Part shown: positions 58 to 18,128 of the stretch, piece by piece | How positions within the stretch are numbered: the stretch's first letter is position 1 | Layout of the letters: each line of letters opens with the position of its first letter | Assembly: GCF_006352475.1 (NCBI RefSeq) | Contig: NZ_VCMZ01000001.1 | Span: 1,674,001-1,738,000, forward strand | DNA: 64,000 bases | Direction of reading: 5' to 3' | From: Acinetobacter pullicarnis | Lineage (GTDB): Bacteria > Pseudomonadota > Gammaproteobacteria > Pseudomonadales > Moraxellaceae | Notes under the pieces: generated by a model | Databases searched by the model: none | Told to the model about the DNA's origin: nothing | What the model saw: the letters and a program-made list of their open reading frames with translations, nothing else | Position numbers and translations under genes: made by a program

Positions 58-618
58 ATGCAACCTCGTATTTTTGATAAAGCCAATCAAACTCTCGTTA
101 AAACGTTGAACTGCAATAAGCTATCTGAACGCTCTAAAGGTCAACTGCACTATCAGCTCTGGCAGGACAATGATGATCAATCTTTTGGGATTGCACTCAG
201 TGGTAATGACTCCTCTGGGGGATTTAGTGCTGAACTCATCAAAGTTGAGCAGATCATTGCAACTTTAGAGCAGCTCTACCAAACAGCTAAGCCATTTCAT
301 GCAATAGCCCTGAAAGGCCTATTCATTGGGAAATCAGTTAACAATGCTAGTTTCTTGGGAGCAATCTTAGTCGATCAAGGTGTTATTCGACTTCACCCTC
401 AAACCACACGATTGTTAGAAGTAAGTGATGAATATGAGTTGTGGCCATTATCTTTTGATGACTGTATTCAAGATGGTGAGTTATTAGAAAATACTGATAG
501 TGGCGCTAAGAATTCCTCCAAGCGAACTAAAACAAAGGCTCAGCAACAAGCGTCCGTTAATATGGATACCGCACAGACTGAGGAGATAGACGATGAAATA
601 CATCAAGACGCCCACTGA
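58..618 (+). CDS. Hypothetical island protein, 186 aa
   Basis: I do not recognise this protein. The ATG follows an AAAGGAATTCC ribosome-binding region. The first ~145 residues look like a compact alpha/beta fold. The last ~35 residues are Lys/Thr/Gln-rich and probably disordered. There is no signal peptide or membrane segment. It overlaps the next ORF by 26 bp, so the two are probably translationally coupled. Its place with integrase and helicase genes upstream of a tRNA-fragment att site marks it as accessory island content. The function is unknown. Confidence 0.7.
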   Translation: MQPRIFDKANQTLVKTLNCNKLSERSKGQLHYQLWQDNDDQSFGIALSGNDSSGGFSAELIKVEQIIATLEQLYQTAKPFHAIALKGLFIGKSVNNASFLGAILVDQGVIRLHPQTTRLLEVSDEYELWPLSFDDCIQDGELLENTDSGAKNSSKRTKTKAQQQASVNMDTAQTEEIDDEIHQDAH

Positions 619-928
619 GCTATACCAAGTTGCTAATCATTTTGTGAGAGCTAGCATTAAATTGCACATGCAGACTTTAGAACAACAGTATGCTGAACCG
701 TATCAAGCCATCCTGCATGGGTGGTTTGTTGTTTGTGAGGATGATAAAGATATTGTTGAACCTTTTCACGGACTATCATTTAGCCTTGCTGAAAAGCTGC
801 AATTAGGCGAAGTCGAATACGTGGAGAAAAAGCAAGATTGGTATGAAGTCTATATTCTATTAAATGATAACGAGGGCATCTTAATCTATGTCCCGATTGA
901 GATATTAGAACGGCATAAAATCGCTTGA
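593..928 (+). CDS. Hypothetical island protein, 111 aa
   Basis: Unrecognised small acidic soluble protein. Its start overlaps the 3' end of the previous gene, and GAGGAGAT just before the ATG is a good ribosome-binding site, so the two genes form a coupled pair. A reverse-strand ORF over the same region looks like a shadow. No catalytic motif is visible. Small acidic genes of this kind are common next to integrases in integrative elements; a role in element maintenance is only a guess. Confidence 0.65.
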   Translation: MKYIKTPTELYQVANHFVRASIKLHMQTLEQQYAEPYQAILHGWFVVCEDDKDIVEPFHGLSFSLAEKLQLGEVEYVEKKQDWYEVYILLNDNEGILIYVPIEILERHKIA

Positions 929-994
929 ATCTAGCCTGTTTGCTACAGCACTGACCTAGCAACATCCCTATGAATTTTAATAAAGAGTCCATTT

Positions 995-1273
995 ATGACA
1001 AGGCAACTATTATTCGCTTTGGGGAAAGTCGTATCTACGCCTAATGCCTTAGAGTTTGTTGTAAAGCATCACATCAATATTTTGATCTTGTTACATCGTC
1101 ATCAAATCGGTGATTGGGGGGAGTTGTGTGAGGAAGATCGTGAATCCAATGAGGATGCTTTGATCACTGATTCGAGAATTTTGTCTAGCTATAATTTTGA
1201 CCAAGACAAGATTTGGATCATTACCGAAGCTGATCGATCCCTAACAACGATCCTATTGCCAAGTGATTACTAG
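995..1273 (+). CDS. Small mobile-element-associated protein, 92 aa
   Basis: The pattern is ALGKVVSTPNALEF, then HQIGDWGELCEEDRESNEDAL, then an IWIITEADRSLTTILLP ending. From memory this matches a conserved family of ~90-residue proteins found on ICEs and plasmids. They are often labelled plasmid-related protein, or wrongly as type I restriction subunit M. The biochemical role is unknown. A strong terminator follows the stop codon, so this is the last gene of a short three-gene unit beginning at 58. The family assignment is from recall only. Confidence 0.75.
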   Translation: MTRQLLFALGKVVSTPNALEFVVKHHINILILLHRHQIGDWGELCEEDRESNEDALITDSRILSSYNFDQDKIWIITEADRSLTTILLPSDY

Positions 1274-2766: not shown

Positions 2767-2824
2767 ACTAATCCCTGATTCTTAAAACATGGTCTCATGA
2801 TCAGGGATTAGTGCGCCTTTTTTT
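2767..2824 (+). terminator. 13-bp hairpin plus T-run before the integrase
   Basis: Perfect stem ACTAATCCCTGAT (2767-2779) / ATCAGGGATTAGT (2800-2812), followed by GCGCC and seven T. It ends the 215-aa gene and lies ~14 bp before the integrase start codon. The AATCCC arm recurs in other hairpins of this island. Confidence 0.75.
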
Positions 2825-2837
2825 ACAAGGAGACCTC

Positions 2838-4034
2838 ATGAACAGCCCTTTTGCAATCAACGCATCAACTAATTTAGGAACGTCACAGTTTTTCAATATT
2901 GAAAAACTCACACTACCAGAGGGTAAATCCAAAGTTGAAATCTCAATTCCTCATGTTAAAGGCCTGAAAGTTGTTGTTTCAAATGCCAGTAAGAGCTTCA
3001 TGTTTCGAGCTGTTTTTGCTCAAAAAAAAATCAGCTGCATGATAGGGAAATATCCTGATATTTCCCTAGAACAAGCTATAAATATCGTTATTCAGTATCA
3101 GCACTCACTGAACAAAGGTATTAACCCTTTGGAGGAGAAAAAACGTGTCAAGAATCTACCCACCCTAAAAGACTTTTTCTACAAAACGTATTTACCTTTG
3201 GCTAAATTGAATAAAAAGTCTTGGAAGGATGATATTTCAAGATTCAAGAATCATATTGAAGCGACTTTGGGGGCTATTCAAATCAATATAATTACAGCAG
3301 CGATGCTCAGTGACTTAATGTTGGAAATCAAAGGGGAAAATCGATCAAATGCAACGGTCAATAGATCGAGAGCATTATTAAGCAGTATGTTCAATCTAGC
3401 CTTCGAACGAGAAGTAATTGATCTTAGCCCAATGAGCCGTGTCAAAAAATTCGTAGAGCAGAATCATATTGAGAGATACCTCAGTGATGATGAGCTTCAG
3501 CGACTTATGCAGATTCTTACAAATCACAAAGTTCACGGCATCGAAAATCAAATTATTGTTGGCATCGTTGAAATGTTGCTATTAACAGGAGCACGTAAAG
3601 GCGAAGTACTCAACCTTAAATGGAGTGATTTAGATGAAAATAATCATCTATGGAAACTCAATGAAAATAAGTCGGGAAAACCACGCATTATTCAGCTGAA
3701 TAGTGAGGCCCAACTAATCATACGCAGAATGTCTCGTAAATATCCTTATGTATTTGCAAACCCTGCAACAGCCCTACCTTACAATGATATACGTAAAACC
3801 TTTCAAAACATCTTGGAAGCTGCTCAGATTGAGAATTTCCGTATTCATGATCTACGTCATAACTTCGCAAGTATGGCTGTGAATAATGGTTGTGATATCT
3901 ATGTGGTACAGCACTTGTTGGGCCATGCTTCACCGACCACCACGCAGCGGTATGCGCATCTACGCCAAGATACTTTGCGTAACGCATCTGAAATGCTAGC
4001 TGGACGTATCAACAGCGCTCGCCCAACTCTCTAA
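2838..4034 (+). CDS. int: Tyrosine recombinase / island integrase, 398 aa
   Basis: Site-specific recombinase of the phage-integrase family. The N-terminal ~95 residues resemble the DUF4102-type arm-binding domain (IGKYPDISLEQA), followed by a SAM-like core-binding region. The catalytic domain shows the Arg in LLLTGARKGEVLNLKW, the HDLRHNFAS box, LLGHASPTTTQRYAHL and the terminal Tyr. I chose the ATG at 2838 because AAGGAG lies just upstream; the longer ORF from 2811 would begin inside the terminator stem. It probably integrates the island at the tRNA-Ile2 gene whose 3' fragment is at 11753-11797. Confidence 0.93.
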   Translation: MNSPFAINASTNLGTSQFFNIEKLTLPEGKSKVEISIPHVKGLKVVVSNASKSFMFRAVFAQKKISCMIGKYPDISLEQAINIVIQYQHSLNKGINPLEEKKRVKNLPTLKDFFYKTYLPLAKLNKKSWKDDISRFKNHIEATLGAIQINIITAAMLSDLMLEIKGENRSNATVNRSRALLSSMFNLAFEREVIDLSPMSRVKKFVEQNHIERYLSDDELQRLMQILTNHKVHGIENQIIVGIVEMLLLTGARKGEVLNLKWSDLDENNHLWKLNENKSGKPRIIQLNSEAQLIIRRMSRKYPYVFANPATALPYNDIRKTFQNILEAAQIENFRIHDLRHNFASMAVNNGCDIYVVQHLLGHASPTTTQRYAHLRQDTLRNASEMLAGRINSARPTL

Positions 4035-4093: not shown

Positions 4094-6340
4094 ATGTCTA
4101 AAAAAACATTTATGCTTGATAAAAGTCAATTTCTAACCCATTTAGGGCTAAAAATACCACCTAATCAAAGCTTCTTTTTGATTGCACCAACAGGATCAGG
4201 CAAAACCTCTTTTACAATGGAGGACTTAAATACTCAATTTGAGTTTGTCCTGATCCTAGTTCCGACTCAGGCCAAAGTAATGGAACTGGAAAGTGAATAT
4301 CCTAAAGTTAAATGCTCAAAATATTTATTTTTTTGTGGAAATAAAAGTCCTGATGAAAGTATTCGTAGTTTTAAAGGTGTTGTAGTCGCTACATATGATA
4401 AATTCGACAAAGTCATAGAGTTAATGACGCCTTTGCAAAAAAAGAAAGCTCTACTGGTCATTGATGAATCTCATAAACTTTATTCAGCAGGATCATTTCG
4501 AGATAGCGCTTTAACACCTGTCATTTGGCATCTACAACAGCGCTCGATTCCCTCAATATTATTTTTGACTGCAACTAAAACCAATACGTTATTTGAGCAG
4601 TTAAAAATCAAGATTGATCAAGAATATATCATTGAACATAAGAATCCGATTATCCGTAGTATTGAAGTTGTTTCATTGCTTAAGGGGGATCAATATACCT
4701 GTGTTGCTATGATTGAGAATAGAATCAAGCAGCTCAAAAAAGAATATATCAGCTTGCCTAAAGATCAACGCTGTAAGACCATTATTGTACGGGTCAATTC
4801 ACGAGAGAAATGTGACAATCTACAGCGATATTTTGAGGATAAATTCAAGCTAAAATGTCTTGTGGTACATAGTAAGTCTAAGAACAATGTTGATGTTCGT
4901 GAGATTTTTGAGACACAGAAGATCCCGAAAGGTGTCGATATTGTATTTACAACCTCAATCATGGATGAAGCTGTAAATCTTAAAAACGAACAGATTGAGG
5001 TTGATTCTATTTTTGTACTTGGAAAACAAGCGCACGTAGAAGAATTGGTTCAATTCATTGGTCGTTTACGTTTGGCCAATGTACCTTGTTATCTGCTATT
5101 GCATACCGAAATTTGTCGTACCCATGATGACCCATCAAAGATTCATGAAAAGCATATTAAAAAGCTGAATGACTTTATATCACGTGTAAATAAAATTGCA
5201 GAAGCTCTAGCAAGTCTTGCTGAAGATTATGAGTTCGATCTGCAAGATATCGAGAAGCCAAATATTTATGACAAAGTTAATCGAATGAATGAGAGTTTTA
5301 AAGAATGGTTCGGTTGCAAGCTTTTTGCTGTCTATAAAGGAAAATCCCTAGAGAATATTGCGAGCCTTGTTTCAACGCTGTATCAAATAGATGCTGGCCA
5401 ATTCTATAGTAGCTTCGAATACCTCAAGTGGCGTATCCAAAAATTTCTTCCTAATTGTAAGATTAGCTATGCTGAGAACAAAACGCTTGAAACACCTCAA
5501 GATATCAAGGATTTTTTTAATGAGCAAAAAAGTAATGCTGAACAAGCCTATGCTGAGAGTATTGATACAGGAATTGAAATTTTTCTTAAGCATTTTCAGA
5601 CTATAAATTTTAAACCTGAATCATTAAAAGATATTTCAAGTAAGTTCATCAAGAATAAACAGCAAGATGAGGCTTATATTGAGGACCTTGTTTGGCATAA
5701 AGACTATCAGGTTCGACACTATGAAGAGGTTAGCCAAGTTCTAAATGAAACGATCTATCTGTCGCAGCATATAACTAATTTACATGATATACGTGAAATA
5801 CTTACCCAGAAGAAATTTAGGGAAATATTGAAAGTCACTGAGGCTTATGCGAATAATGAATTTATCCGTCATATCGTTAAACAACTCTATGGCAGTAATC
5901 CTAATAAATATTTGCATGGTCACTATACCCTTAATGGCGTACAGGCCAGTAAATTATTGAGTAAGACAATCAAAGCCGTACAGGATCAGACACACCTACC
6001 GATGCGAACGATCATTAAAGAGAACCTGATCAAAGGAATGCGTTATGACTATAAAACCGATGCCTTTGACATTACTGAAAGCAAAGCCTTAAACTTTCTT
6101 GCTGCTTATTTTGAGGTCAAAGACAAAAATAAGAATAAACCTGAAAGACGCTACCTTGAATTTCAGGGTATTGCTGTTGGCGGCTTTGAATACCTGAGTC
6201 TTAAAGATTTACAAGCTCCGCATCTCATTGCAAAAGAAAAATTTATACTCAATGAGAAGACCTATGATGCCTATTCTGGTCAATGTCTGACTAAGCTGAC
6301 TCGTACACTAAGCATGGAAGATCTTTATAACGAACTTTAA
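4094..6340 (+). CDS. SF2 DEAD/DEAH-type helicase, 748 aa
   Basis: Superfamily 2 helicase. Visible motifs: Walker A APTGSGKTS (~residues 31-39), motif II DESH in LLVIDESHKL (~125), motif III TATKT (~158), and a motif VI-like QFIGRLR near residue 320. The C-terminal ~400 residues have no motif I recognise and are rich in charged helices. It stands alone between the integrase and the repeat-bounded cargo gene. Possible roles are replication of the excised island, mobilisation, or defence. The repeat copy begins within its last codons (6335). Confidence 0.8.
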   Translation: MSKKTFMLDKSQFLTHLGLKIPPNQSFFLIAPTGSGKTSFTMEDLNTQFEFVLILVPTQAKVMELESEYPKVKCSKYLFFCGNKSPDESIRSFKGVVVATYDKFDKVIELMTPLQKKKALLVIDESHKLYSAGSFRDSALTPVIWHLQQRSIPSILFLTATKTNTLFEQLKIKIDQEYIIEHKNPIIRSIEVVSLLKGDQYTCVAMIENRIKQLKKEYISLPKDQRCKTIIVRVNSREKCDNLQRYFEDKFKLKCLVVHSKSKNNVDVREIFETQKIPKGVDIVFTTSIMDEAVNLKNEQIEVDSIFVLGKQAHVEELVQFIGRLRLANVPCYLLLHTEICRTHDDPSKIHEKHIKKLNDFISRVNKIAEALASLAEDYEFDLQDIEKPNIYDKVNRMNESFKEWFGCKLFAVYKGKSLENIASLVSTLYQIDAGQFYSSFEYLKWRIQKFLPNCKISYAENKTLETPQDIKDFFNEQKSNAEQAYAESIDTGIEIFLKHFQTINFKPESLKDISSKFIKNKQQDEAYIEDLVWHKDYQVRHYEEVSQVLNETIYLSQHITNLHDIREILTQKKFREILKVTEAYANNEFIRHIVKQLYGSNPNKYLHGHYTLNGVQASKLLSKTIKAVQDQTHLPMRTIIKENLIKGMRYDYKTDAFDITESKALNFLAAYFEVKDKNKNKPERRYLEFQGIAVGGFEYLSLKDLQAPHLIAKEKFILNEKTYDAYSGQCLTKLTRTLSMEDLYNEL

Positions 6341-6533
6341 AAGACCACTATCAAGTCCACAATCCCAATGTTTTCAGTTCTCACAGGTTCAGGTGAGGTT
6401 CGAACCGAAATCATTGGGATTCTGCACGATGCAGAAATGTGAGGGGGATAAATTTATTTTGTGGTAAAACTCTGGGCTTGTGTTCGGTCACATCATGTTG
6501 TGGGCTCGGTGCTGGGGGGAGTTTTGGTTATTT
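6335..6533 (+). repeat. Structured direct repeat, copy A (~198 bp)
   Basis: This copy matches 11134-11331 with only scattered substitutions. It contains an outer 10-bp stem AATCCCAATG/CATTGGGATT enclosing two small hairpins, CTCAC/GTGAG and GGTT/AACC, then a conserved tail hairpin CTGCA-CGA-TGCAG and AATGTGAGG. It starts at the helicase stop codon. With copy B it brackets the nuclease/NTPase gene. Confidence 0.85.
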
Positions 6534-6727: not shown

Positions 6728-8183
6728 ATGGCTAATATTGACATCGCGGAAGGAAAATTAAAATGTTTACTGGATGAAGTAAGGCAAAACTTACCAACAA
6801 TAATAAGTGAAGAAGATGCAAAAATTAAAATTATAAATAGAATCTTTAATGAGTGTTTAGGCTGGTCATTCACCACTTTTTTTTGTGAAAATAGCCATGA
6901 AAATGGTTTTTCTGACTATATATTAAAAATAGGTGATGAAGAGTCGCTTGTCGTAGAAGCTAAGCGTATAGGCATATTAGGTGTAGAGTCAGCTATTATT
7001 GACAAGTGTCGAACTCTTAAGATTTCTGGTACTGTTTTGAAACCATCAATCGAGGGTATAAAGCAGGCTCATTCATACGCCAGTGATGCTGGGATTCCTA
7101 TTTCAGTAGTAACAGATGGGATTACATGGATAGTTTTTAAAAATTGGGTTAAAGGTGGATACAGAGAAAAGGAGGCATTTGTTTTTCCATCTCTTGAGGC
7201 TGTTGAAAATTCTTTTAGTACTTTTTATGAGCTACTTTCATATGAAAGCTTTACTAATAAAACATATAGTATTCTTTTTGACCAAGTACATAATAATCGT
7301 CAACAGCTCACTCTCCCTTTGACCGCTGCACTGGAATCTAGTGATATAAATATACTTCAAAAGTCCCCCATTGCATTTGATCTTGAAAAGATCTTTAACA
7401 ATTTTTTCACACAAATTACAGGGGATGCTAATTCCGAAATCATGAAAGAGTGTTTTGTTGAATCTAATGAAAGTCAGATTGCAGATTATTCCTTAGAGAA
7501 GATCACCAATAGTGTTTTGAATAATTTACCTCATTATAAAAGTCAAGTAGGACATGAATTAAGTAATCTAATTGAGGGAAATGTACAGGCAGGCATCCCG
7601 CCAGATTCAGACCTATCTGTCTTTATTGTCGGTCCAACTGGTTCTGGTAAAACCACTTATATTGATAGATTCTTCTCAAAAATACTGGATAGGAATATAA
7701 GAGAGGATTGCTTAACTATAAATATTAATTGCTTAGATGCTACTGGGGATATAAGCAGAATAACAAGTTGGCTAACTGCAACAATTATAAGTTTTTTAGA
7801 AAAAAAGTTGTTTTCGGAGGGATTCCCTACTTATAACGACTTAAAAGGTATGTATTTTAGTCAATATCAACGAATGGCTTCAGGTTATTTAAAGAAAGTT
7901 TATGAAAATGATAAAAAAATATTCGATGAAAAATTTGCAGACTTTCTAGATAAAGAGGTTCATGAAAATCGTGAAGGTTATCTAGAGAGTCTGCTTCACT
8001 TCACAATACATAACCGTAAAAAACTACCCATCATTATTGTGGATAATACGGATGAATTTACAATTGATTTTAAGATCCAAATTTTCCAGTTTTGTAATTC
8101 TTATAGAAGAAAAGTAAAAACGTGTATGTTAATGTTCCCCGTTACAGATAAGTCTGCATGGAGCTTTTCTAAGACCGATATAT
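6728..8183 (+). pseudogene. 5' part of IS-split nuclease/P-loop NTPase gene
   Basis: This encodes residues 1-485 of a protein that would be 975 aa without the IS; as it stands it stops at the IS edge (TAG at 8183-8185). Residues ~20-190 resemble the HsdR_N-type PD-(D/E)XK fold: FSDYIL gives the Asp, LVVEAKR gives the ExK, and a downstream Gln lies in IKQAHSY. From residue ~298 a P-loop NTPase begins with VGPTGSGKTTYID (Walker A) and a Walker B-like IIIVDNTDEF near 435. A nuclease plus NTPase on an integrase-bearing island suggests an anti-phage or anti-plasmid system. That role is inferred. Confidence 0.85.
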
Positions 8184-8271
8184 AGAGGTGGATCAGGAAA
8201 TTTGAACAACACTTATAAGTGATATTTTGCTCCCCAAATGATGTTATAAACATCAATATATGGAGTATTTT

Positions 8272-8577
8272 ATGGCACGTAGACCAAGAAGAAATCATTC
8301 AAATGATTTTAAAGCTAAGGTAGCACTTGCTGCGATTAAAGCAGAAAAAACACTTGCTGAATTGAGTGCTGAATTTGATGTTCATCAAAACCAAATTATC
8401 GACTGGAAAAATCAACTGATTTCAGCTTCCTCGCAAGCTTTCGATCAATCAAAAGCTCCAACAGAACCACCCATCGATCTAAAAAAACTACATGCAAAAA
8501 TCGGTGAGCAGGCATTAGAAATTGATTTTTTAGAAGGTGTGTTGAAGAAACTGGGCCGCTTCAACCACAAAAGTTAA
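8272..8577 (+). CDS. IS3-family transposase OrfA, 101 aa
   Basis: DNA-binding half of the transposase. It has the IS3-type helix-turn-helix (FKAKVALAAIKAEKTLAELSAEF, with HQNQIIDWKNQL) and a C-terminal leucine-zipper-like coiled coil. The start at 8272 is chosen because GGAG lies 7 bp upstream; the ATG at 8260 has no such site. Near the 3' end, T-TTT-TTA (8526-8532) in the zero frame is a classic -1 slippery heptamer that would produce the OrfAB fusion transposase. Confidence 0.92.
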   Translation: MARRPRRNHSNDFKAKVALAAIKAEKTLAELSAEFDVHQNQIIDWKNQLISASSQAFDQSKAPTEPPIDLKKLHAKIGEQALEIDFLEGVLKKLGRFNHKS

Positions 8578-8663
8578 TCGATGACTCACTTCAGATTTCA
8601 GTATCTAAGCAAGCTCAGCTGCTGAAAGTCTCCCGTGGTTGTTATTACTATCGCCCAAAACCT

Positions 8664-9404
8664 GTGAGTGCATCAGATCTGAAGCTGATGCGCTGTATGG
8701 ATGAGTTACATATGCAATACCCTTTTGCAGGTAGCCGTATGATGCGTGATTTGTTGAATCGTCAAGGACATCATATAGGACGACGTCATACACGTACTTT
8801 AATGAAGAAAATGGGCATTAATGCGTTATATTGCAAACCAAATTTAAGCCAGGCTAATCAAGCTCACCGCAAATATCCATATCTGCTCAAAGGATTGGCT
8901 ATTCAGCGCAGTAATCAAGTGTGGTCTACGGATATAACGTATATCCCTATGGCAAAAGGCTTTGTTTATTTATGTGCTGTGATTGATTGGCATAGCCGCA
9001 AGGTACTTGCGCATAGAGTATCGATTAGTATGGAGGTTACATTTTGCATAGAAACATTAAATGAAGCTATTGAAAAATATGGTCGACCTGAAATATTTAA
9101 TACAGACCAAGGCAGTCAGTTTACCAGTGATGCATTTATTGATGTATTGAAATCAAATGACATCCAAATCAGCATGGATGGTAAAGGTCGATGGGTTGAT
9201 AATGTGATGGTTGAACGATTATGGCGGAGCGTTAAATATGAAGAGGTGTATCTCAAAGCCTACAGCAATGTTTTGGATGCGAAGAAGCAATTAAACGCAT
9301 ATTTTGAATTTTATAATTTGAAACGACCTCATTCGAGTCTGGACAAAATGACTCCAGATGAGTTTTACTATGACCAGCTACCACAACAAAATAAGGTAGC
9401 TTAA
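8664..9404 (+). CDS. IS3-family transposase OrfB (DDE), 246 aa or OrfAB fusion
   Basis: Catalytic half of the transposase. The HTH_21-like region (MQYPFAGSRMMRDLL) precedes the rve core with the DDE triad: Asp in WSTDITYI, Asp in FNTDQGSQF, Glu in VERLWRSVKYEE. The frame is open upstream of the first ATG back to the slippery site at 8526-8532, so the active product is probably the -1 frameshift fusion of 8272-9404. No internal stop is seen, so the IS may still be active. Confidence 0.93.
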   Translation: MSASDLKLMRCMDELHMQYPFAGSRMMRDLLNRQGHHIGRRHTRTLMKKMGINALYCKPNLSQANQAHRKYPYLLKGLAIQRSNQVWSTDITYIPMAKGFVYLCAVIDWHSRKVLAHRVSISMEVTFCIETLNEAIEKYGRPEIFNTDQGSQFTSDAFIDVLKSNDIQISMDGKGRWVDNVMVERLWRSVKYEEVYLKAYSNVLDAKKQLNAYFEFYNLKRPHSSLDKMTPDEFYYDQLPQQNKVA

Positions 9405-9468
9405 CTAGAGCAGAGTATCACTTATAAATAAGCTTTTAGTTGTTCAAACATGTGGGACCACCTCTTAT

Positions 9469-10940
9469 TTACAATACATCAGTCAAAATCTTTCTTTTTG
9501 CCAACACCTTCACCAAGAGAGGTTTTTAGAAAGCGACTAGAATTTCTCAATAAAAAACTTATTACAGCTGATATAAAAGATAGAAAAGAATATTTATCTA
9601 GTAAAGGAATTCGCATAGAACTCAAAGATATTACAAAGTTTGCACAGGTTTTAGAGGATATCTTCGTTGAGAATAATTTTACAGCGAAAACTTTAGGTGA
9701 ATTAACTAACTACAATATCCGTTCAATTATGAATCTTTCAAGAAGAATCATCACATCCCCAGTAATGAGAATTGAAGACCTTATTGTCAGTTATGTAACT
9801 GAAGAACCTATCAGTTTTGCCAAGTTTATTGATGCCCTGCTTCGTGGAGATTATGAGGCTTATAAGGTAAGTACTGGGGATGATTTTGGTGTTATTTCGA
9901 CTTTCAACGTAAATTCAACGAAAATCCATTCTCCACTACTAACTTTGCGAGTACTTGCTTTGTTAAGAGTAGCAAAACACAATGGGAGAGATGTTGAAGA
10001 AAAACATTTAACTGTACGGTCAGTTATTAACTATTTTGAAGTATTAGATGTAGATTCTATTAGTATTGAGTTTTGCTTAAAAGAGCTAGTTTTTTTAAAA
10101 CTACTGGAACCTTATGACCCTTCAACAAGTGTATTAAATGAAGGACAACGGTTAGCCATAACGTATAAAGGTTTGGTTCATTATGATTTAGCCACAAAGA
10201 ATAATGTATATTTTTACCAAATGGCAATTACTACGGGATTAAGTGATCCAGAAGTAGTTTATGAAATTCGAAGTTATTATCAATCAAAACGCCCTTTTGG
10301 AGATAAAACTTTATACATCAGAAGGAAGTTTTCAGAATATCTACTTCATGAAGACAAAAAGTATATAACTCAAATTCAGGATAAAGAGCAGTTCGAATGC
10401 CAAAGAGATTTGATTAAAGATATAAATGCTTTTAGTCTTGATAGGAGTGGTAATGGACTAAATTCACTTATTCAAGACAATTATTCTAGTCTTCTAGGAG
10501 AGAAATTAGTCGGTAAAGTGAATAAATATGATCAAGAAAAAGACTATGGATTTATGGCCTTTTCTGAAATAAGTGATGAAGTTTACTTCAAAATTTCCAG
10601 ACTTATAAGAAATGAAATAGGTGCAGTCTATGATGGAGATGTTGTGTACTGTACATTAAAGCGCGGGGAAAAAGGAATCTCTATAAATACTATAGATGGA
10701 TTTGTCGAAGATAAAAATGAATTTCAGATTGAAAAGTGTCTCATAACATTTTACAACATGGAGCGAGGATTCGGCTTTGCTAATATAGGTATTACGTCAA
10801 ATGATGCTTTCTTTCATAAGACAGCATTCCCAAATAACTTTTCTGAACACATTAAAGAGAATTTGGAATTTCAAGCCGAAATAAGACTAAAAGAAAATGG
10901 GAAGTATTATGTAAGACGCTGTTTGGGCTTAATTGAGTAA
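9469..10940 (+). pseudogene. 3' part of IS-split gene, with two cold-shock-like domains
   Basis: This is the rest of the 975-aa protein (residues 486-975). It joins in frame to 8183 as Asp-Ile-Phe-Thr-Ile. A long helical middle region has no motif I can name. Near the C-terminus there are two OB folds of cold-shock type: GKVNKYDQEKDYGFM (~residue 832) and ITFYNMERGFGFA with FFHKTAF (~908-930), the latter matching RNP1 and RNP2. This suggests single-stranded nucleic-acid binding. An ORF from 9450 begins inside the IS end and could yield a fragment, but the intact protein is lost. Confidence 0.85.
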
Positions 10941-11039: not shown

Positions 11040-11128
11040 GATTTACTCAGCTTTCTCATAGTCGACGTTAAGACCCAAGCTGAGTAAATCAGGATTCTGC
11101 GCGATACAGAAATGTGAGGAGGATAAAC
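11040..11128 (+). repeat. Third structured element, with a different stem but the same tail
   Basis: Perfect 14-bp inverted repeat GATTTACTCAGCTT (11040-11053) / AAGCTGAGTAAATC (11077-11090), followed by the tail GGATTCTG..CAGAAATGTGAGG that also ends the structures in copies A and B. The stem sequence is unrelated to A and B, while the tail is conserved. It lies after the split cargo gene and may serve partly as its terminator. Confidence 0.7.
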
Positions 11129-11133
11129 TAGTT

Positions 11134-11331
11134 CTTTAAATGGCCACTATCAAGTCCACAATCCCGATGTTTTCAGTTCTCACAGGTTCAGGTGAGTTTC
11201 GAACCGAAATCATTGGGATTCTGCTCGATGCAGAAATGTGAGGGGGATAAATTTATTTTGTGATAAAACTTTGGGCTTGTGTTCGGTCACATCATGTTGT
11301 GGGCATATGCTGGGGGGAGTTTTAGTTATTT
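11134..11331 (+). repeat. Structured direct repeat, copy B (~198 bp)
   Basis: This is the second copy of 6335-6533, on the same strand. The outer stem is AATCCCGATG/CATTGGGATT, with one G-T pair where A has A-T. CTCAC/GTGAG is kept, the GGTT/AACC hairpin is weakened by one change, and the tail hairpin is CTGC-TCGAT-GCAG. A short ORF at 11238-11477 over its 3' part looks fortuitous. Confidence 0.85.
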
Positions 11332-11752: not shown

Positions 11753-11797
11753 CTCATAATCCGTTGGTCCCGTGTTCAAGTCACGGTGGGCCCACCA
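11753..11797 (+). other. 3' fragment of tRNA-Ile2(CAU)-like gene; island attachment site
   Basis: The 45 nt carry the anticodon loop CTCATAA, a TTGGTC variable region, a T-arm CCGTG-TTCAAGT-CACGG, the acceptor strand TGGGCCC and an encoded ACCA. No matching 5' half precedes it; the upstream bases cannot pair with the anticodon stem. TTGGTC and GTTCAAGTC fit tRNA-Ile2 better than elongator tRNA-Met. Tyrosine integrases often use tRNA 3' ends, so this is read as the right att of the island. Confidence 0.8.
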
Positions 11798-11802
11798 AAT
11801 TC

Positions 11803-11839: not shown

Positions 11840-12310
11840 CCTGCTATCTTTAGGATGTTGGACTTTGCGGTAAAAAATGCGGTCCATTTATTGAATCGTC
11901 GGTTGGGCTATCTTACCTGTGGTCTAGCATATATCTAGTTTTACTCTTCGCCTCAGCTCAAATACTTCTTGGCTATAATTTTGTTATCAAATTCTATTGT
12001 CGTGCTTATAAACTTTGAATTATTTCTTACATAAAATCAAATAGAAAGATGTATTGGTTAATATTATTAATTCGTTTGAACTGGTTTTTTCTCATAAAAA
12101 AACCATCGAATTGAGGTTAGTAATATTTGCTCTATTACTCAATATTTCCAAACATAATTCATCTTCGATATCTACATTTTTTGTTGATAGATCATTTTAT
12201 TCCTAAAAAAGCTTGACCTTACAATTATGGGAAGCTGGATAAAAGCACCGAGAGCGACTTTAGCTCAGTAGAACTAAAACGAAATGTCGATTCCAGATAT
12301 GGACGTAAAG
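11840..12310 (+). other. Non-coding spacer before the efflux operon
   Basis: AT-rich spacer with no supported gene. A TTGACC (12213-12218) is followed 17 bp later by a poor -10 candidate, TGGATA, so the efflux promoter is only suggested. No divergent regulator gene is present. GCGGTC-like motifs continue at ~11866-11886. A TTTAGCTCAGT string near 12259 resembles a tRNA D-arm, but no tRNA can be folded there. Confidence 0.5.
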
Positions 12311-13480
12311 ATGATGAAACTTAAACGAATAAGCTTACCTGCAGTCACGGCTTGCCTAGCTTTGGCGCTTGTAGGCTGTCAAGAAACAGTCCCTGAAGCT
12401 GCTTCTGCCAAGCCGCCAAGTGTTCCTGTTGCCAAAGTCATGGCGAAGCCCGTAACGCCATCTGTTGAATTCACTGGGGCATTGGCTGCGGTCAAACATG
12501 TTGAGTTGCGACCAAGGGTCGCTGGTTATATTCAAAGTGTGAGCGTTCCTGAAGGGCGCTTTGTTGAAAAGGGGCAAGAGCTTTTTAGAATTGATCCACG
12601 GGTTTTTCAAGCCAAACTCAACGCAGCAATAGCACAGTTACGTGAAGCAGAAGTAGCATCAGTGTTGGCTCAAACAGAATATATTCGGGCCAAACAATTA
12701 TTTGAACAAAAAATCATTGCACGTGATCGACTCGATACCACAATGGCTGCTTTGGGGGTCAGTAAAGCACAAGTCGATGCAGCTAAAGCCGTACGTGATG
12801 CAGCTCAATTAGATTTAAGTTTTACTCGAGTGACAGCATCAATGAGTGGGCGTGTTGGGCAAATCCTTGTGACCGAAGGAAACTATGTCACGAGTGGTAT
12901 CACGCCATTAATGAGCATCGTCTCAACTAATCCGTTGCACGTTTATTTTGATGTTGACGAACGTACTTATTTACAATCGCTTGCAGCAGGTCGCGCCAAA
13001 GCAGGTTCAAATGTAGGAGAGGCAGTAAAGGTCAAAGTGGCCCTACTTACTGATCAGATGCATTCAAGACTCGGTCATGTTGATTTTCTCTCGAACACTG
13101 TTGATCGTGGTACAGGAACGATACGTGCCCGTGCCGTTGTCGATAATACCGATGGATTATTGATACCTGGACTTTTTGCCAAGGTCAAATTAGAGACAGG
13201 CAAACCAGTGGATCGAGTGCTCATTTCTGATCAATCGATAGGTACTGATCAAGGGAGTCGTTATGTATTGGTGGTTGGTAAAGGGGATGTGACGGAGTAT
13301 AGGCCAGTGGAGCTTGGGCCAGTCATCGATGGTTTACGTGTGATCGAGAAAGGTTTAAAGCCAAATGAACGTATCGTCGTTAAAGGCTTAGTACGTCCTG
13401 GAATGCAGGTCTCACCGCAAGTAACGACAATTGATGGGAAGACGATTACACCGCAGAAAGCAGTGGGGGCTAGTCAATGA
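12311..13480 (+). CDS. mexE: RND efflux periplasmic adaptor (MexE-like lipoprotein)
   Basis: Membrane-fusion protein linking the inner-membrane pump to the outer-membrane channel. The N-terminus has a lipoprotein signal with lipobox LVGC. The barrel-sandwich halves (LRPRVAGYIQSVSVPEGRFVEKGQ and TRVTASMSGRVGQILVTEGNYV) flank an alpha-hairpin, followed by beta-barrel and membrane-proximal domains, as in MexE. Several in-frame ATGs exist (12284, 12299, 12311, 12314). 12311 is preferred for a compact signal peptide, but the ribosome-binding site is weak. The stop overlaps the pump start by 4 bp. The order mexE-mexF-oprN matches the Pseudomonas operon; its usual LysR activator is absent here. Confidence 0.88.
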   Translation: MMKLKRISLPAVTACLALALVGCQETVPEAASAKPPSVPVAKVMAKPVTPSVEFTGALAAVKHVELRPRVAGYIQSVSVPEGRFVEKGQELFRIDPRVFQAKLNAAIAQLREAEVASVLAQTEYIRAKQLFEQKIIARDRLDTTMAALGVSKAQVDAAKAVRDAAQLDLSFTRVTASMSGRVGQILVTEGNYVTSGITPLMSIVSTNPLHVYFDVDERTYLQSLAAGRAKAGSNVGEAVKVKVALLTDQMHSRLGHVDFLSNTVDRGTGTIRARAVVDNTDGLLIPGLFAKVKLETGKPVDRVLISDQSIGTDQGSRYVLVVGKGDVTEYRPVELGPVIDGLRVIEKGLKPNERIVVKGLVRPGMQVSPQVTTIDGKTITPQKAVGASQ

Positions 13481-16400
13481 ATATCCCTCGGTTTTTTATT
13501 GATCGACCAATCTTTGCTGTTGTCCTCTCGATTGTCATGATGATTGCGGGCATTGTAGCCTTTTTCCAATTACCATTAAGTGAATACCCCGCAGTAACCC
13601 CACCTACGGTACAAGTTACCGCTTCCTATCCCGGTGCCAATCCTGCTGTAATTGCTGAAACGGTGGCAGCGCCTCTGGAGCAGGCGATTACTGGCGTTGA
13701 GGACATGTTATATATGTCTTCGCAATCGGCAACGGATGGCCGCATGGTGCTTACCGTCACATTTGCGCAAGGCACCAATGCGGATATGGCTCAGATTCAG
13801 GTACAAAATAGGGTTGCGCGTGCACTGCCACGCTTGCCTGAAGAAGTACAGCGTCAGGGTGTTGTCACACAGAAAACTTCGCCAGATATCTTAATGGTCG
13901 TACATCTATTATCACCCGATAAACGTTATGACCCATTGTATATGTCGAACTATGCTCACATGAATGTGCGTGATGAGTTGTCTCGTATTCCCGGAATTAG
14001 TGATGTGTTGGTATGGGGTGCAGGGGAGTATAGTATGCGCCTTTGGCTCGACCCTGATTTGATCGCTTCGCGAGGACTGACTGCTGGGGATGTGATTGCT
14101 GCAGTACGTGAACAAAATGTACAGGTGGCCGCAGGCTCCGTTGGGCAGGCACCGAATTCCAGTGCAGAATTTCAAGTCACGGTAAATACGCTTGGTCGAT
14201 TAACCGATGAAGAACAGTTTGGTGACATTATCATTCGTACTGGTAGTGATGGCCAAATGACGCGTTTACGTGATGTTGCGCGGATTGAAATGGGCGCTGA
14301 TGCTTATGCGCTACGTAGTCTGCTTGACGGCGAACCTGCGGTTGCATTGCAAATTATTCAGAGTCCAGGAGCGAATGCACTTGACGTTTCTCAAGCTGTA
14401 CGAACAACGATGCAGCGACTTGAGGGTAAATTCCCAGAAGGACTCAGCTCTCGTATTGCCTATGATCCTACCGTATTTGTCCGTGCATCACTGGAAACAG
14501 TAGCAACCACGTTATTAGAAGCCATCCTTTTGGTCGTGATTGTCGTGGTGCTATTCCTACGAAATTGGCGTGCTTCTATTATTCCACTGATGGCTGTGCC
14601 AGTCTCGCTGATCGGTACTTTCGCAGTGATGTATCTGATGGGCTTCTCACTTAATACTTTGTCATTGTTTGGTTTAGTACTTTCAATAGGGATCGTCGTG
14701 GATGACGCTATTGTCGTGGTCGAGAATGTTGAAAGGCATATTGAAAATGGGGAGAAACCGATTGAGGCGGCAAGGAGAGCGATGCAGGAGGTGACAGGTC
14801 CGATTATCGCGATTACGTCAGTGCTTGCCGCTGTATTCATTCCGACCGCTTTTCTCAGTGGTTTGCAGGGAGAGTTCTATCGCCAGTTCGCGCTGACGAT
14901 TGCGATTTCAACTATTCTGTCTGCTGTCAACTCGCTTACTCTCAGTCCAGCGCTTGCTGCATTGTTATTACGTCCACGTAAAGCTGCGGTGGTACATGAT
15001 CCGCAGAGCATTCGCGGTCGGGCTAATCGCACGTTTCAGTGGTTGGGTCGACCATTTCAACGTGCACCTAACGCTTATGGCAACATGGTACGTAAACTCG
15101 TGCGCTTGAGTGGAGTGGTACTGATCGTTTATGGAGGCATGTTGTTCTTGACCTATGTCGGTTTTAAGGCCGTACCACCTGGCTTCGTACCAATGCAGGA
15201 TAAATACTATCTTGTGGGGATTGCACAACTTCCAAATGCTGCATCACTAGACCGCACTGAGGCTGTGGTGAAGCAGATGACTAAAATTGCATTGGCTGAA
15301 CCTGGGGTTGAAAGTGTGGTTGCCTTTCCAGGACTTTCAATCAATGGTTTTGTGAATGTACCAAATGCAGCCGTGATGTTCGTGATGCTTGATCCCTTTA
15401 AGGATCGTATTACACCTGATCTGAGCGCTAATGCAATTATGGGGCGTTTACAAGCAAAATTCTCAAGTATTCCTGATGGTTTCCTCGGCGTATTTCCACC
15501 ACCGCCAGTACCAGGTCTTGGTGCAACAGGTGGTTTTAAAATGCAGATCGAAGACCGAAGTGGTGCAGGGTTGAATGCCTTGGTAGAACAAACGCAGATA
15601 TTAATGACAAAAGCGACCGAATCAGGACAAGTTGCAGGGGTGATGACCAGTTTTGATGTCAATGCACCACAACTCGATGTTGCGATTGATCGTACTCAGG
15701 CAAAAAGCCAAGGAGTGTTATTGTCAGATATATTCGAGTCATTACAAGTTTATCTTGGCTCACTTTATGTTAATGATTTCAATCGCTTCGGAAGAACATA
15801 TAAAGTTATGGCTCAAGCAGATGCAGAACATCGGATGCAAGCTGAAGCTATTGGTCGCTTACAGGTACGTAATGCAGCTGGAGATATGCTGCCATTGTCA
15901 TCATTTTTAAGTGTTACTCCAAGTGCAGGTCCTGATCGAATCATTCATTACAATGGCTATCCATCAGCCGATATTTCAGGGGCTGCTATGCTGGGTGTAA
16001 GTTCAGGGCAGGCCGTAGCCGAAATGGAACGTTTGGCGAAAGAATTCTTAGCAGATGGCATAAGTTTTGAGTGGACAGATCTTACCTATCAACAAAAGTT
16101 AGCAGGCAATACAGCGCTGTTTATTTTCCCACTGTGTGTACTGTTAGCCTATCTGATTTTGGCTGCACAATATAACAGTTGGTTACTACCTTTTGCAGTT
16201 CTGCTGATTGTACCAATGTGTTTGTTAAGTGCAGTGCTTGGGATTTGGTGGGTAGGTGGCGATAACAACATTTTCGTACAGATTGGGCTGATTGTTCTTG
16301 TTGGCTTAGCTGCCAAGAATGCGATTTTGATTGTTGAGTTTGCGCGGAGTCTTGAAGCCGCAGGATCAACGGCACTTGACGCAGTAATTGAGGCCTGTCG

Positions 16401-16653
16401 CTTGCGGTTACGGCCGATTGTGATGACGTCATTGGCCTTTATTGCAGGTGTGGTTCCGTTAGTGTTTGCGACCGGGGCAGGTGCTGAAATGCGTCAGGCG
16501 ATGGGCATTGCTGTTTTTGCAGGGATGTTAGGCGTGACTTTGTTTGGATTGTTTCTGACCCCCATTTTTTATGTCGTGATACGTAAAATATCGGCTCGTT
16601 TTGAGCGATCTAAGAAGATTGATCAATCTCTAGAAGAGGAAAGTCACTTATGA
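13477..16653 (+). CDS. mexF: RND multidrug efflux pump (MexF-like), 1058 aa
   Basis: Proton-driven inner-membrane transporter of the HAE1 family. It shares long stretches with Pseudomonas MexF from memory, including the start (FFIDRPIFAVVLSIV), the mid-region VPPGFVPMQDKYYLV and the PPPPVPGLGATGGFKMQIED segment. The TM4 proton-relay pair is in SIGIVVDDAIVVVENVE and the TM10 Lys is in VGLAAKNAILIVEFA. Length is normal for the family. It overlaps both neighbours by ATGA, indicating one coupled operon. MexF-type pumps export chloramphenicol, quinolones and trimethoprim; the substrate here is not shown. Confidence 0.95.
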   Translation: MNIPRFFIDRPIFAVVLSIVMMIAGIVAFFQLPLSEYPAVTPPTVQVTASYPGANPAVIAETVAAPLEQAITGVEDMLYMSSQSATDGRMVLTVTFAQGTNADMAQIQVQNRVARALPRLPEEVQRQGVVTQKTSPDILMVVHLLSPDKRYDPLYMSNYAHMNVRDELSRIPGISDVLVWGAGEYSMRLWLDPDLIASRGLTAGDVIAAVREQNVQVAAGSVGQAPNSSAEFQVTVNTLGRLTDEEQFGDIIIRTGSDGQMTRLRDVARIEMGADAYALRSLLDGEPAVALQIIQSPGANALDVSQAVRTTMQRLEGKFPEGLSSRIAYDPTVFVRASLETVATTLLEAILLVVIVVVLFLRNWRASIIPLMAVPVSLIGTFAVMYLMGFSLNTLSLFGLVLSIGIVVDDAIVVVENVERHIENGEKPIEAARRAMQEVTGPIIAITSVLAAVFIPTAFLSGLQGEFYRQFALTIAISTILSAVNSLTLSPALAALLLRPRKAAVVHDPQSIRGRANRTFQWLGRPFQRAPNAYGNMVRKLVRLSGVVLIVYGGMLFLTYVGFKAVPPGFVPMQDKYYLVGIAQLPNAASLDRTEAVVKQMTKIALAEPGVESVVAFPGLSINGFVNVPNAAVMFVMLDPFKDRITPDLSANAIMGRLQAKFSSIPDGFLGVFPPPPVPGLGATGGFKMQIEDRSGAGLNALVEQTQILMTKATESGQVAGVMTSFDVNAPQLDVAIDRTQAKSQGVLLSDIFESLQVYLGSLYVNDFNRFGRTYKVMAQADAEHRMQAEAIGRLQVRNAAGDMLPLSSFLSVTPSAGPDRIIHYNGYPSADISGAAMLGVSSGQAVAEMERLAKEFLADGISFEWTDLTYQQKLAGNTALFIFPLCVLLAYLILAAQYNSWLLPFAVLLIVPMCLLSAVLGIWWVGGDNNIFVQIGLIVLVGLAAKNAILIVEFARSLEAAGSTALDAVIEACRLRLRPIVMTSLAFIAGVVPLVFATGAGAEMRQAMGIAVFAGMLGVTLFGLFLTPIFYVVIRKISARFERSKKIDQSLEEESHL

Positions 16654-18128
16654 GGAATTCTTATATAAAGCGCTTACTTCCGCTGAGTGCATTGACTTTT
16701 TTGGCTGGCTGTGCGGTCGTAGGGCCTGATTATTCAGCACCGGCTTTGCCGCTGTTACAGTTCCCTGCCAGTTTTGATCAGGCATCTACAGGCTTAAGTC
16801 CAGAGGCCGTTGAGGTGCAGTGGTGGCAGACTTTTGCAGATCCGATGCTAACAGGTTTGGTACAACAGGCATTGTCTGCCAATCACGATATTGCAATTGC
16901 AGCCATGCGCTTAGAAGAAGCCAAAGCGTTACTCCGTGAAAATCGTCAAGGTTATTTGCCAAGTGGCGGTAGCATACTGCGTTATGAAAACAACAGACGT
17001 AGTCAGACTGAAACACCATTTGATCAACCACGGCGGATAGAAAGTTATCGCACTGCGGTAGATGCTGCTTGGGAGATTGATCTTTTCGGTCGTGTACAGC
17101 GTTCGGTGGAAGCTGCTCGAGCACATGCTGGTTCGCGTGAAGCATTGCTGCGGCAAGTGCAGGCAGGTGTTGCAGCAACAGTCGCTGCGACCTGGTTCGA
17201 GCTACGTGGTATTGAAACCGAGTTAGTATTAGTGGCTGATATTCGTCATAACCAACAACAAAGTTTGCGCTTAGTTGAAAGGATGGTGATGGCCGGTTCT
17301 GCGAGTGAATTCGATCGACTACGTGCTGAAGCATTACTGCGTAATGTCGAAGTCGCTGTACCTGAATTGGAACAGCGTCGTTCAGTCGCCATTAATGCAT
17401 TGGCATTACTTGTGGGTGAAGCGCCACAAACATTCACAGTCCCGACCATAAAACCTGTGGCTAAAACATTGGCTATCCGAACAATTGCAGTGGGTGATCC
17501 AACTGGGCTCTTGTCACGTCGTGCTGATATTGCAGCAGCAGAGCGCAATCTTGCAGCAGCGACTGCTCGCATTGGAGTGGAAACAGCTGGGCTTTATCCT
17601 GAGATTCAGGTACAGGGTTCAATTGGATTCGTAGCAGGGGGATTGGATAGCTTAACTGGTGCAAGTACATTGTCTGGTATTTTTGGACCAAGCATTCGTT
17701 GGTCGTTTCTAGATATTGGGCGTGTACGTGCTCGGATCGCGGCCAGTGAAGCACAGAGTAAAGCGGCTTTATTCATTTATGATCAAACCATATTACGTGC
17801 ACTGCAAGAAACTGACAACGCTTTTAAAGCATATATCACTGCGGGTGAGACCCTAGGACTACGGTTATTGGAAGCTACTGCAAATACCGCAGCCGCAGAC
17901 TTGGCCCGAATGCGCTTTACAGCGGGCGAAGGTGTTTATTTAGATGTGCTTGAAGCAGAACGTAGTGACTTTGCCAGTCGGCGTGCACTGACGATTGCAC
18001 GAACCAATCAACAACTTGCAGTCGTTAGTATTTACAAAGCATTAGGTGGTGGTTGGGAAGTTTGCACACAGCAGCAAAATGATTGTAGTGGGGCTAATGC
18101 GGCAGCAAACTTTAATTTTTTAAAATAG
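16650..18128 (+). CDS. RND outer-membrane channel (NodT/OprN-like lipoprotein)
   Basis: TolC-like outer-membrane factor of 492 aa. It has a lipoprotein signal with lipobox LAGC, the family start VVGPDYSAPALP, a WWQTFADPMLTGLVQQAL region, and two OEP repeats (VDAAWEIDLFGRVQRSVEAARA and IRWSFLDIGRVRARIAASEA). It is the third gene of the operon and is followed by a clear terminator. It is likely to form the exit duct with the MexE/MexF-like proteins. OprN is the nearest named analogue by context. Confidence 0.92.
   Translation: MRNSYIKRLLPLSALTFLAGCAVVGPDYSAPALPLLQFPASFDQASTGLSPEAVEVQWWQTFADPMLTGLVQQALSANHDIAIAAMRLEEAKALLRENRQGYLPSGGSILRYENNRRSQTETPFDQPRRIESYRTAVDAAWEIDLFGRVQRSVEAARAHAGSREALLRQVQAGVAATVAATWFELRGIETELVLVADIRHNQQQSLRLVERMVMAGSASEFDRLRAEALLRNVEVAVPELEQRRSVAINALALLVGEAPQTFTVPTIKPVAKTLAIRTIAVGDPTGLLSRRADIAAAERNLAAATARIGVETAGLYPEIQVQGSIGFVAGGLDSLTGASTLSGIFGPSIRWSFLDIGRVRARIAASEAQSKAALFIYDQTILRALQETDNAFKAYITAGETLGLRLLEATANTAAADLARMRFTAGEGVYLDVLEAERSDFASRRALTIARTNQQLAVVSIYKALGGGWEVCTQQQNDCSGANAAANFNFLK

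Follow-up and report, generated by a model that had tools for sequence, protein, structure and literature searches.

The 64,000-nucleotide stretch of the Acinetobacter pullicarnis genome analyzed here (the window; C1:1674001–1738000 of source genome G000) holds, at 6728–10940, two open reading frames (ORFs) on the same strand with two transposase ORFs in between, which poses the question of what protein the flanking frames specify and what role it plays. We consider it likely that they are the halves of a single-gene defence protein, directed against phages or more broadly against mobile genetic elements, that was carried as cargo of an island at a tRNA-Met gene and inactivated by an insertion sequence (IS). 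The family to which this protein belongs, with intact members in prophages, plasmids and defence-bearing islands across many bacteria, is probably an uncharacterized single-protein antiviral system.

A gene interrupted by an insertion sequence

The flanking ORFs (6728–8185, 485 aa, and 9450–10940) belong to one gene of approximately 975 codons, interrupted by a 1,282-bp IS. As delineated from ORFs and alignment, the 5′ half (N piece; 6728–8185, + strand) carries an HsdR-type PD-(D/E)XK nuclease region, with residues D63, E77, K79, Q113 and Y117, and a P-loop NTPase. The 3′ half (C piece; 9466–10940, + strand) carries the end of the NTPase module, a helical or winged-helix-like region recognized by eye without a matching model, and two cold-shock domains (CSDs). 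The intervening IS (8184–9465, + strand), defined from its ORFs, Pfam matches and hand-read ends, has an IS3-type layout, with transposase ORFs at 8260–8577 and 8664–9404 (+ strand) that match HTH_Tnp_1 (slightly below the Pfam cut-off), rve and HTH_21; from this two-ORF arrangement we take it to be a member of the IS3 family. Its termini, AGAGGTGG.../...CCACCTCT, were read by hand at 8184 and 9465, as were TAT target repeats at 8181–8183 and 9466–9468. The insertion appears to be recent, since a second copy, 100% identical across 1,280 bp, is present at C1:2266077–2267356 of the same genome. A short remnant of the same kind of IS (81% identical) also lies immediately left of tRNA-Met in locus L088, at ~15021–15138.

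The N and C pieces align to the corresponding halves of an unbroken protein from A. ursingii (80% and 69%), and intact relatives are found in A. ihumii (976 aa), A. ursingii (975 aa) and the A. baumannii plasmid pCUVET596 (976 aa). An earlier note on this DNA had proposed that the two frames form one gene split by the IS; the fit of both halves to intact proteins of 975–976 aa, together with the TAT repeats flanking the IS, bears this out. The family analysis was built on the intact relatives and on the separate N and C pieces, which were left unjoined. Ratios of nonsynonymous to synonymous substitution (dN/dS) against two relatives were 0.056 and 0.073 for the N half and 0.101 and 0.105 for the C half, values that are only indicative at a dS of ~2; a third comparison was saturated.

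The earlier note also suggested that the insertion had been positively selected because the gene had become costly, for instance through autoimmunity. Three copies of the gene are split by three different IS: that of the window, that of plasmid pYUSHP14-1 (L006, NZ_CP090068.1), where ISAba1 interrupts the gene near tet(X3) and sul2, and that of E. coli H7 (L144, NZ_CP010171.1), where IS1A interrupts one of the seven E. coli copies. This recurrence is suggestive only, and the IS type of the window may simply be active, because it has several copies in the genome; we regard selection for the insertion as doubtful.

Nuclease and NTPase domains

In the protein, the predicted HsdR-type PD-(D/E)XK nuclease is followed by the P-loop NTPase, the helical region and the two CSDs, which is the order that the earlier note had read, and the motifs it had named are conserved across the aligned relatives. 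The N piece contains the Walker A motif GPTGSGKT and the Walker B motif IIIVDNTD. In an alignment of 61 rows, which includes near-duplicates and a copy with a frameshift (L099) as well as the N piece, the nuclease residues D63, E77, K79, Q113 and Y117 (D ... ExK plus QxxxY) and the Walker A lysine K308 are invariant (61/61), while the Walker B residues D439 and D442 are retained in 60 of the 61 rows; the A. pullicarnis N piece has every one of them. The QxxxY motif is associated with HsdR nucleases. Among 44 relatives, the commonest Pfam matches at E ≤ 0.001 are AAA_16 (39) and AAA_22 (37), followed by CSD (17), HSDR_N (8), nSTAND_NTPase5 (5), HSDR_N_2 (1) and NACHT (1); none of the 15 Pfam families matched is a TPR. 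HSDR_N exceeds its cut-off in L028 (28.8 versus 25.1) and in L007. The P-loop domain resembles AAA_16, AAA_22 and ATPase_2, all three of which match the N piece below their Pfam cut-offs, and has a weak likeness to ORC/Cdc6. In searches of the PDB, the top match of the nuclease profile was an HsdR subunit, albeit weak (E = 0.041), and the full profiles gave P-loop matches among the best 60 of 124 and of 140 rows.

A gated effector fits this family because the nuclease site and the NTPase are both conserved, no modification partner is conserved, and the C-terminal end is variable. We propose that the N-terminal HsdR-type nuclease would be kept in check by the STAND/ORC-like P-loop NTPase, and that an infection cue would be sensed by the C-terminal half, whereupon an NTP-dependent rearrangement or oligomerization would switch on DNA cutting. 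The two cold-shock oligonucleotide/oligosaccharide-binding (OB) folds added in this subfamily would probably recognize single-stranded DNA or RNA produced in the course of infection. The main rival to this gated effector is a type IV-like restriction enzyme, in which the NTPase would move the nuclease onto DNA that is modified or foreign, or along it, as in HsdR or McrBC, and cutting would be direct, without a gated abortive response. Such an enzyme would accord with the HSDR_N matches of some relatives, the QxxxY motif, the weak HsdR match in the PDB, and the lack of a conserved methyltransferase partner among the neighbours at 70 loci. However, the window pieces and relatives show no superfamily 2 (SF2) helicase motor above the cut-off in Pfam and no McrB match in Pfam or NCBIfam, and the affinities of the P-loop domain lie with AAA_16/AAA_22/ATPase_2 and, weakly, ORC/Cdc6. 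On balance we judge the type IV-like alternative unlikely.

Accessory cold-shock tails

The two cold-shock (OB) domains lie at approximately 10500–10930 (+ strand), and the C piece matches CSD (PF00313) above cut-off (E = 5e-10). Motifs that we take to correspond to RNP1 (DYGF and RGFGF) and RNP2 (VYF and FFHK) are discernible by eye in most of 21 aligned rows. Across the 58 rows of the tree, two CSDs occur in 20, one in 2 (both from Planctomycetota) and none in 36, so that the earlier description of a cold-shock architecture stands for this subfamily but not for the family, in which the tails are accessory. On the careful tree, the presence of CSDs requires two changes, interpreted here as two gains. 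All two-CSD rows fall on the same side of a branch supported at 73/38, which makes it likely, though not certain, that the pair arose once. The core is probably functional even where cold-shock tails are missing; the tails may broaden or adjust what is sensed or how substrates are bound.

A cargo slot shared with known defence systems

The gene occupies the cargo slot of an integrase–helicase island of ~14.4 kb inserted at tRNA-Met. Helicase matches were obtained in 20 of the 173 Acinetobacter genomes searched, and the islands of 16 of the 19 other genomes were retrieved, one partial and two weak cases being left out. A set of small genes, the integrase and the helicase recur in these sister islands, which have two sites for cargo, one separating the tRNA from the core and the other separating the helicase from attR. 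The latter slot, which has an att copy at its distal end, is occupied in seven islands: by the split nuclease–NTPase gene in the window; by type I restriction–modification (R-M) genes in G059; by Septu-type genes in G017 and G047; by a SIR2/ThsA-like protein and a 475-aa protein lacking Pfam and PADLOC matches (L128:8029–9453) in G167; by a 1,352-aa NACHT protein, assigned by Pfam and lacking a PADLOC match (L126:12336–16391), in G029; and by a MoxR ATPase and a VWA protein, again assigned by Pfam and lacking a PADLOC match (L132:5583–8728), in G075. The slot is short (at most ~1.3 kb) in G079, G170, G022, G166, G169 and pYUSHP14-1. Type I R-M genes flank the core on its tRNA side in G079, between both att copies, and in G081, G170 and G119, where the outer end was not located. 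The same side of the core holds the homologue of our gene in pYUSHP14-1 and in the A. ursingii island (L029, L137), where it sits between tRNA-Met and core. Further matches comprise a PD-Lambda-4/Avs4-like protein after the helicase in G143 (attR not located), a dCTPase model in G081, a weak PDC-S33 match in G069, and an NsnA/PD-T4-2-like protein in G124, in which the helicase is partial.

When 20 of the 76 slot ORFs, hand-picked by size and look from 13 of the 16 islands (with the slots of G022, G166 and G169 outside the scan), were compared with PADLOC, 16 of the 20 matched defence models at E ≤ 1e-5, in 11 of the 13 islands. At the same threshold, no PADLOC match was found for the integrase, the helicase or two further proteins (215 and 149 aa) of the window island. 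In L125 and L129, the Septu-type cargo is bordered by repeats akin to a 171-nt repeat that flanks the cargo of the window (73–79% identical, some partial), which suggests that cargo may be exchanged by recombination between repeats. The helicase itself was set aside as a functional partner, being part of the island core: only G000 and G169 of the 20 helicase genomes are among the four Acinetobacter genomes with the nuclease gene, and no helicase is listed near the gene on pCUVET596, in an incomplete gene table.

Distribution on plasmids, prophages and chromosomes

Searching with the N piece (tblastn) yielded 25 plasmid records, 23 of them with query coverage of at least 80%, and a profile scan of genomes with alignment A1 yielded 60 loci, 44 of which entered alignment A3. 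A shorter type of ~810–840 aa (alignment A2) is homologous to the longer type across 717 columns (hhalign probability 100, E = 3e-74). The PHROGs scan (v4) covered relatives L028, L014, L095 and L096, and all four match phrog_14719 (833 positions, 'unknown function'): residues 1–819 of the 976 in L028 correspond to positions 1–823 (E = 2e-237), and three relatives devoid of CSDs match along nearly their whole length (E = 4e-154 to 3e-301).

Several copies are found among phage genes. An intact two-CSD relative on an IMG/VR contig (L093) adjoins lambda-type tail genes, L100 adjoins a P2-type portal gene, and in the distant relative L096 the gene lies between the portal gene and gpA of P2 type; section 10 of PMC9122126 describes the gpA–gpQ interval of P2-like phages as an anti-phage hotspot. 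All seven E. coli copies lie between DUF977 and hokD among lambdoid-prophage genes; for three, a broad view of the surroundings showed an integrase and head or terminase genes, and the other four, viewed within 4 kb, are likewise surrounded by phage genes. The proposal of the earlier note that the gene is island cargo directed against phages or plasmids, widened here to mobile elements, is thus supported by the sister islands, the P2 hotspot, the lambdoid prophages and the plasmids. The presence of the gene on 25 plasmid records and in prophages and islands would also suit a gene for element maintenance or for competition between elements, such as plasmid exclusion or superinfection exclusion of related prophages, as opposed to broad anti-phage defence. 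Although the two ideas overlap, the slots held in common with known anti-phage models and the P2 gpA–gpQ location speak for the latter, and we find a role confined to such competition rather improbable.

A housekeeping or element-replication role, in which an ORC-like NTPase would act with a nuclease in, for example, repair or replication of the element, would draw on the weak ORC/Cdc6 similarity and on the chromosomal neighbours common to four Nostocales copies (L045, L048, L049 and L054). The latter include riboflavin-synthase-like and aldo-keto-reductase-like genes and imply a fixed chromosomal place, arising either by descent or through a shared insertion site. Yet the family is sporadic, with the gene in 4 of 175 Acinetobacter genomes and the short type in 7 of 5,426 E. 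coli genomes (DNA search with L014); it occupies differing cargo positions, has no conserved partner, and IS-split copies persist in islands, a plasmid and a prophage. The sporadic spread led us to reject a housekeeping role, which we hold to be very improbable, with the Nostocales copies standing against that rejection. The earlier note had named housekeeping homologues outside islands as contrary evidence: none appeared in the contexts viewed, but island borders were viewed for a minority of the 60 loci, and the Nostocales copies do share neighbours.

A conserved operon partner was likewise rejected, since the widest cluster in a set of 981 ORFs neighbouring 70 loci, made up of ABC transporters by appearance, reaches 9 loci. 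In the same set, no HsdM/HsdS, modification methyltransferase or McrC partner is conserved. A PADLOC comparison of 276 neighbours from genome and plasmid loci returned AbiE, IetAS, PDC-S01/S06 and type I R-M, among others.

Weighing the defence reading

Several observations weigh against a defence function. The case for it is drawn from sequence and gene context. The N piece has no HSDR_N match even at E ≤ 1, and this model matches just 8 of the 44 relatives, so the nuclease call for the N piece rests on its alignment to relatives; the P-loop matches, mostly below Pfam cut-offs, point to no single NTPase class. Against PADLOC 2023 and NCBIfam, the window pieces gave P-loop or CSD matches only, with no model matched well, and neither the N piece nor L014 had a match among INPHARED phage records. 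The slot ORFs compared with PADLOC were a biased choice with no random background, and the 11 islands with a defence match include G124, with its partial helicase, and G069, with its weak match. The PADLOC families listed for the 276 neighbours are the 25 commonest, each with 1 to 4 members, again without a background rate. Finally, the shared neighbours of the Nostocales copies speak against a mobile gene in every lineage.

Even so, an IS-inactivated defence gene remains our preferred interpretation, and we advance a broader version of it more tentatively: the phrog_14719 core may define a widespread, unnamed one-protein immune family, built on an HsdR-type nuclease gated by a STAND/ORC-like NTPase, that has gained CSDs at least twice as sensors of single-stranded phage nucleic acid, while its vehicle in Acinetobacter, the tRNA-Met element, undescribed so far, may swap entire defence systems in a repeat-bounded slot. 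If the family does defend, a named immune system would stand behind plasmid and prophage proteins that now carry the annotations 'type I restriction endonuclease', 'cold shock domain-containing protein' or 'hypothetical', and the accessory tails would make it possible to test how an NTPase-gated nuclease senses nucleic acids. More defence candidates are offered by the unassigned cargo-slot ORFs of the islands, the 1,352-aa NACHT protein in L126 being one.

Layout of the A. pullicarnis island

The full tRNA-Met gene lies at C1:1671362–1671438, 2.6 kb left of the window, and attR, a copy of its 3′ end, lies at 11753–11800 (+ strand), with 11753–11797 identical over 45 bp. Between them, the conserved core comprises three small genes at 58–1273 (+ strand; 186, 111 and 92 aa, with no Pfam match at E ≤ 0.01), a tyrosine integrase at 2811–4034 (+ strand) and a DEAD/SF2 helicase at 4094–6340 (+ strand). 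A 149-aa protein with weak helix-turn-helix matches (1397–1846, − strand) has homologues in some sister islands. Adjoining the integrase, a 215-aa protein (2098–2745, + strand) weakly matches Gad1 (Gabija anti-defence 1), scoring below the cut-off with E = 0.035; sister island L126 contains a homologue (63%). The 171-nt direct repeats flanking the cargo lie at 6335–6505 (+ strand), starting at the helicase stop codon, and at 11134–11304 (+ strand), with 96% identity. Three copies of a 36-nt motif lie around the cargo (6417–6452, 11092–11127 and 11216–11251), two of them within the 171-nt repeats. Outside the island and abutting it on the right, a resistance–nodulation–division (RND) efflux operon, encoding a membrane-fusion protein, a pump and an outer-membrane channel as judged from ORFs, spans 12284–18128.

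Comparison with known systems

The identity of the protein as a known system was rejected, given that PADLOC and NCBIfam show just P-loop or CSD matches for the window pieces. The claim of the earlier note that no known system has this architecture holds for these pieces in PADLOC 2023, NCBIfam and Pfam, while relatives are present in PHROGs under 'unknown function'. Among the matches listed in our literature searches, titles and abstract openings describe neither the architecture nor the tRNA-Met islands, the supplementary tables of two relevant screens lying beyond that coverage, and a search with one phrog number and three accessions returned no paper. The passages covered of PMC12421847, on A. 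baumannii defence, contain nothing on these islands. Systems validated with DefensePredictor include these domain classes, according to the parts of PMC13092281 covered. NTPase-gated nuclease defence is already known as a kind; as far as we have seen, this branch of it is unnamed in the sources covered.

The nearest counterpart is phrog_14719, which the core matches nearly end to end; its profile stops before the two CSDs, and it comes with neither a name nor an assigned function or trigger. The P2 gpA–gpQ hotspot is a shared location, in that L096 occupies the interval, and the family is not named in section 10 of PMC9122126. With HsdR of type I R-M systems the family shares an N-terminal nuclease region that contains D, ExK and QxxxY, and part of the family matches HSDR_N, whereas it lacks an SF2 helicase motor and a conserved HsdM/HsdS partner, and its NTPase is of another class. 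McrBC type IV systems, including CoCoNuTs, similarly combine a nuclease, an NTPase and CSD-like OB folds, and the CSDs of CoCoNuTs are said typically to bind RNA and possibly single-stranded DNA; in contrast to our family, in which none of these was found, CoCoNuTs rely on GTPases of the McrB type together with McrC partners and coiled coils (PMC11090510, in the parts covered).

A further comparison is with the antiviral STAND NTPases (Avs), which carry N-terminal effectors. The window pieces match no Avs model in PADLOC at E ≤ 1, and the family protein differs in its length (976 aa versus 1,570 positions in the Avs4 model) and in its cold-shock tails; a TPR, as in the C-terminal sensor of Avs, was not matched in Pfam in the 44 relatives. 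What the two have in common is an effector nuclease followed by a P-loop NTPase and a C-terminal half that may act as sensor, apparently within a single gene, and a sister island bears a PD-Lambda-4/Avs4-like protein after its helicase.

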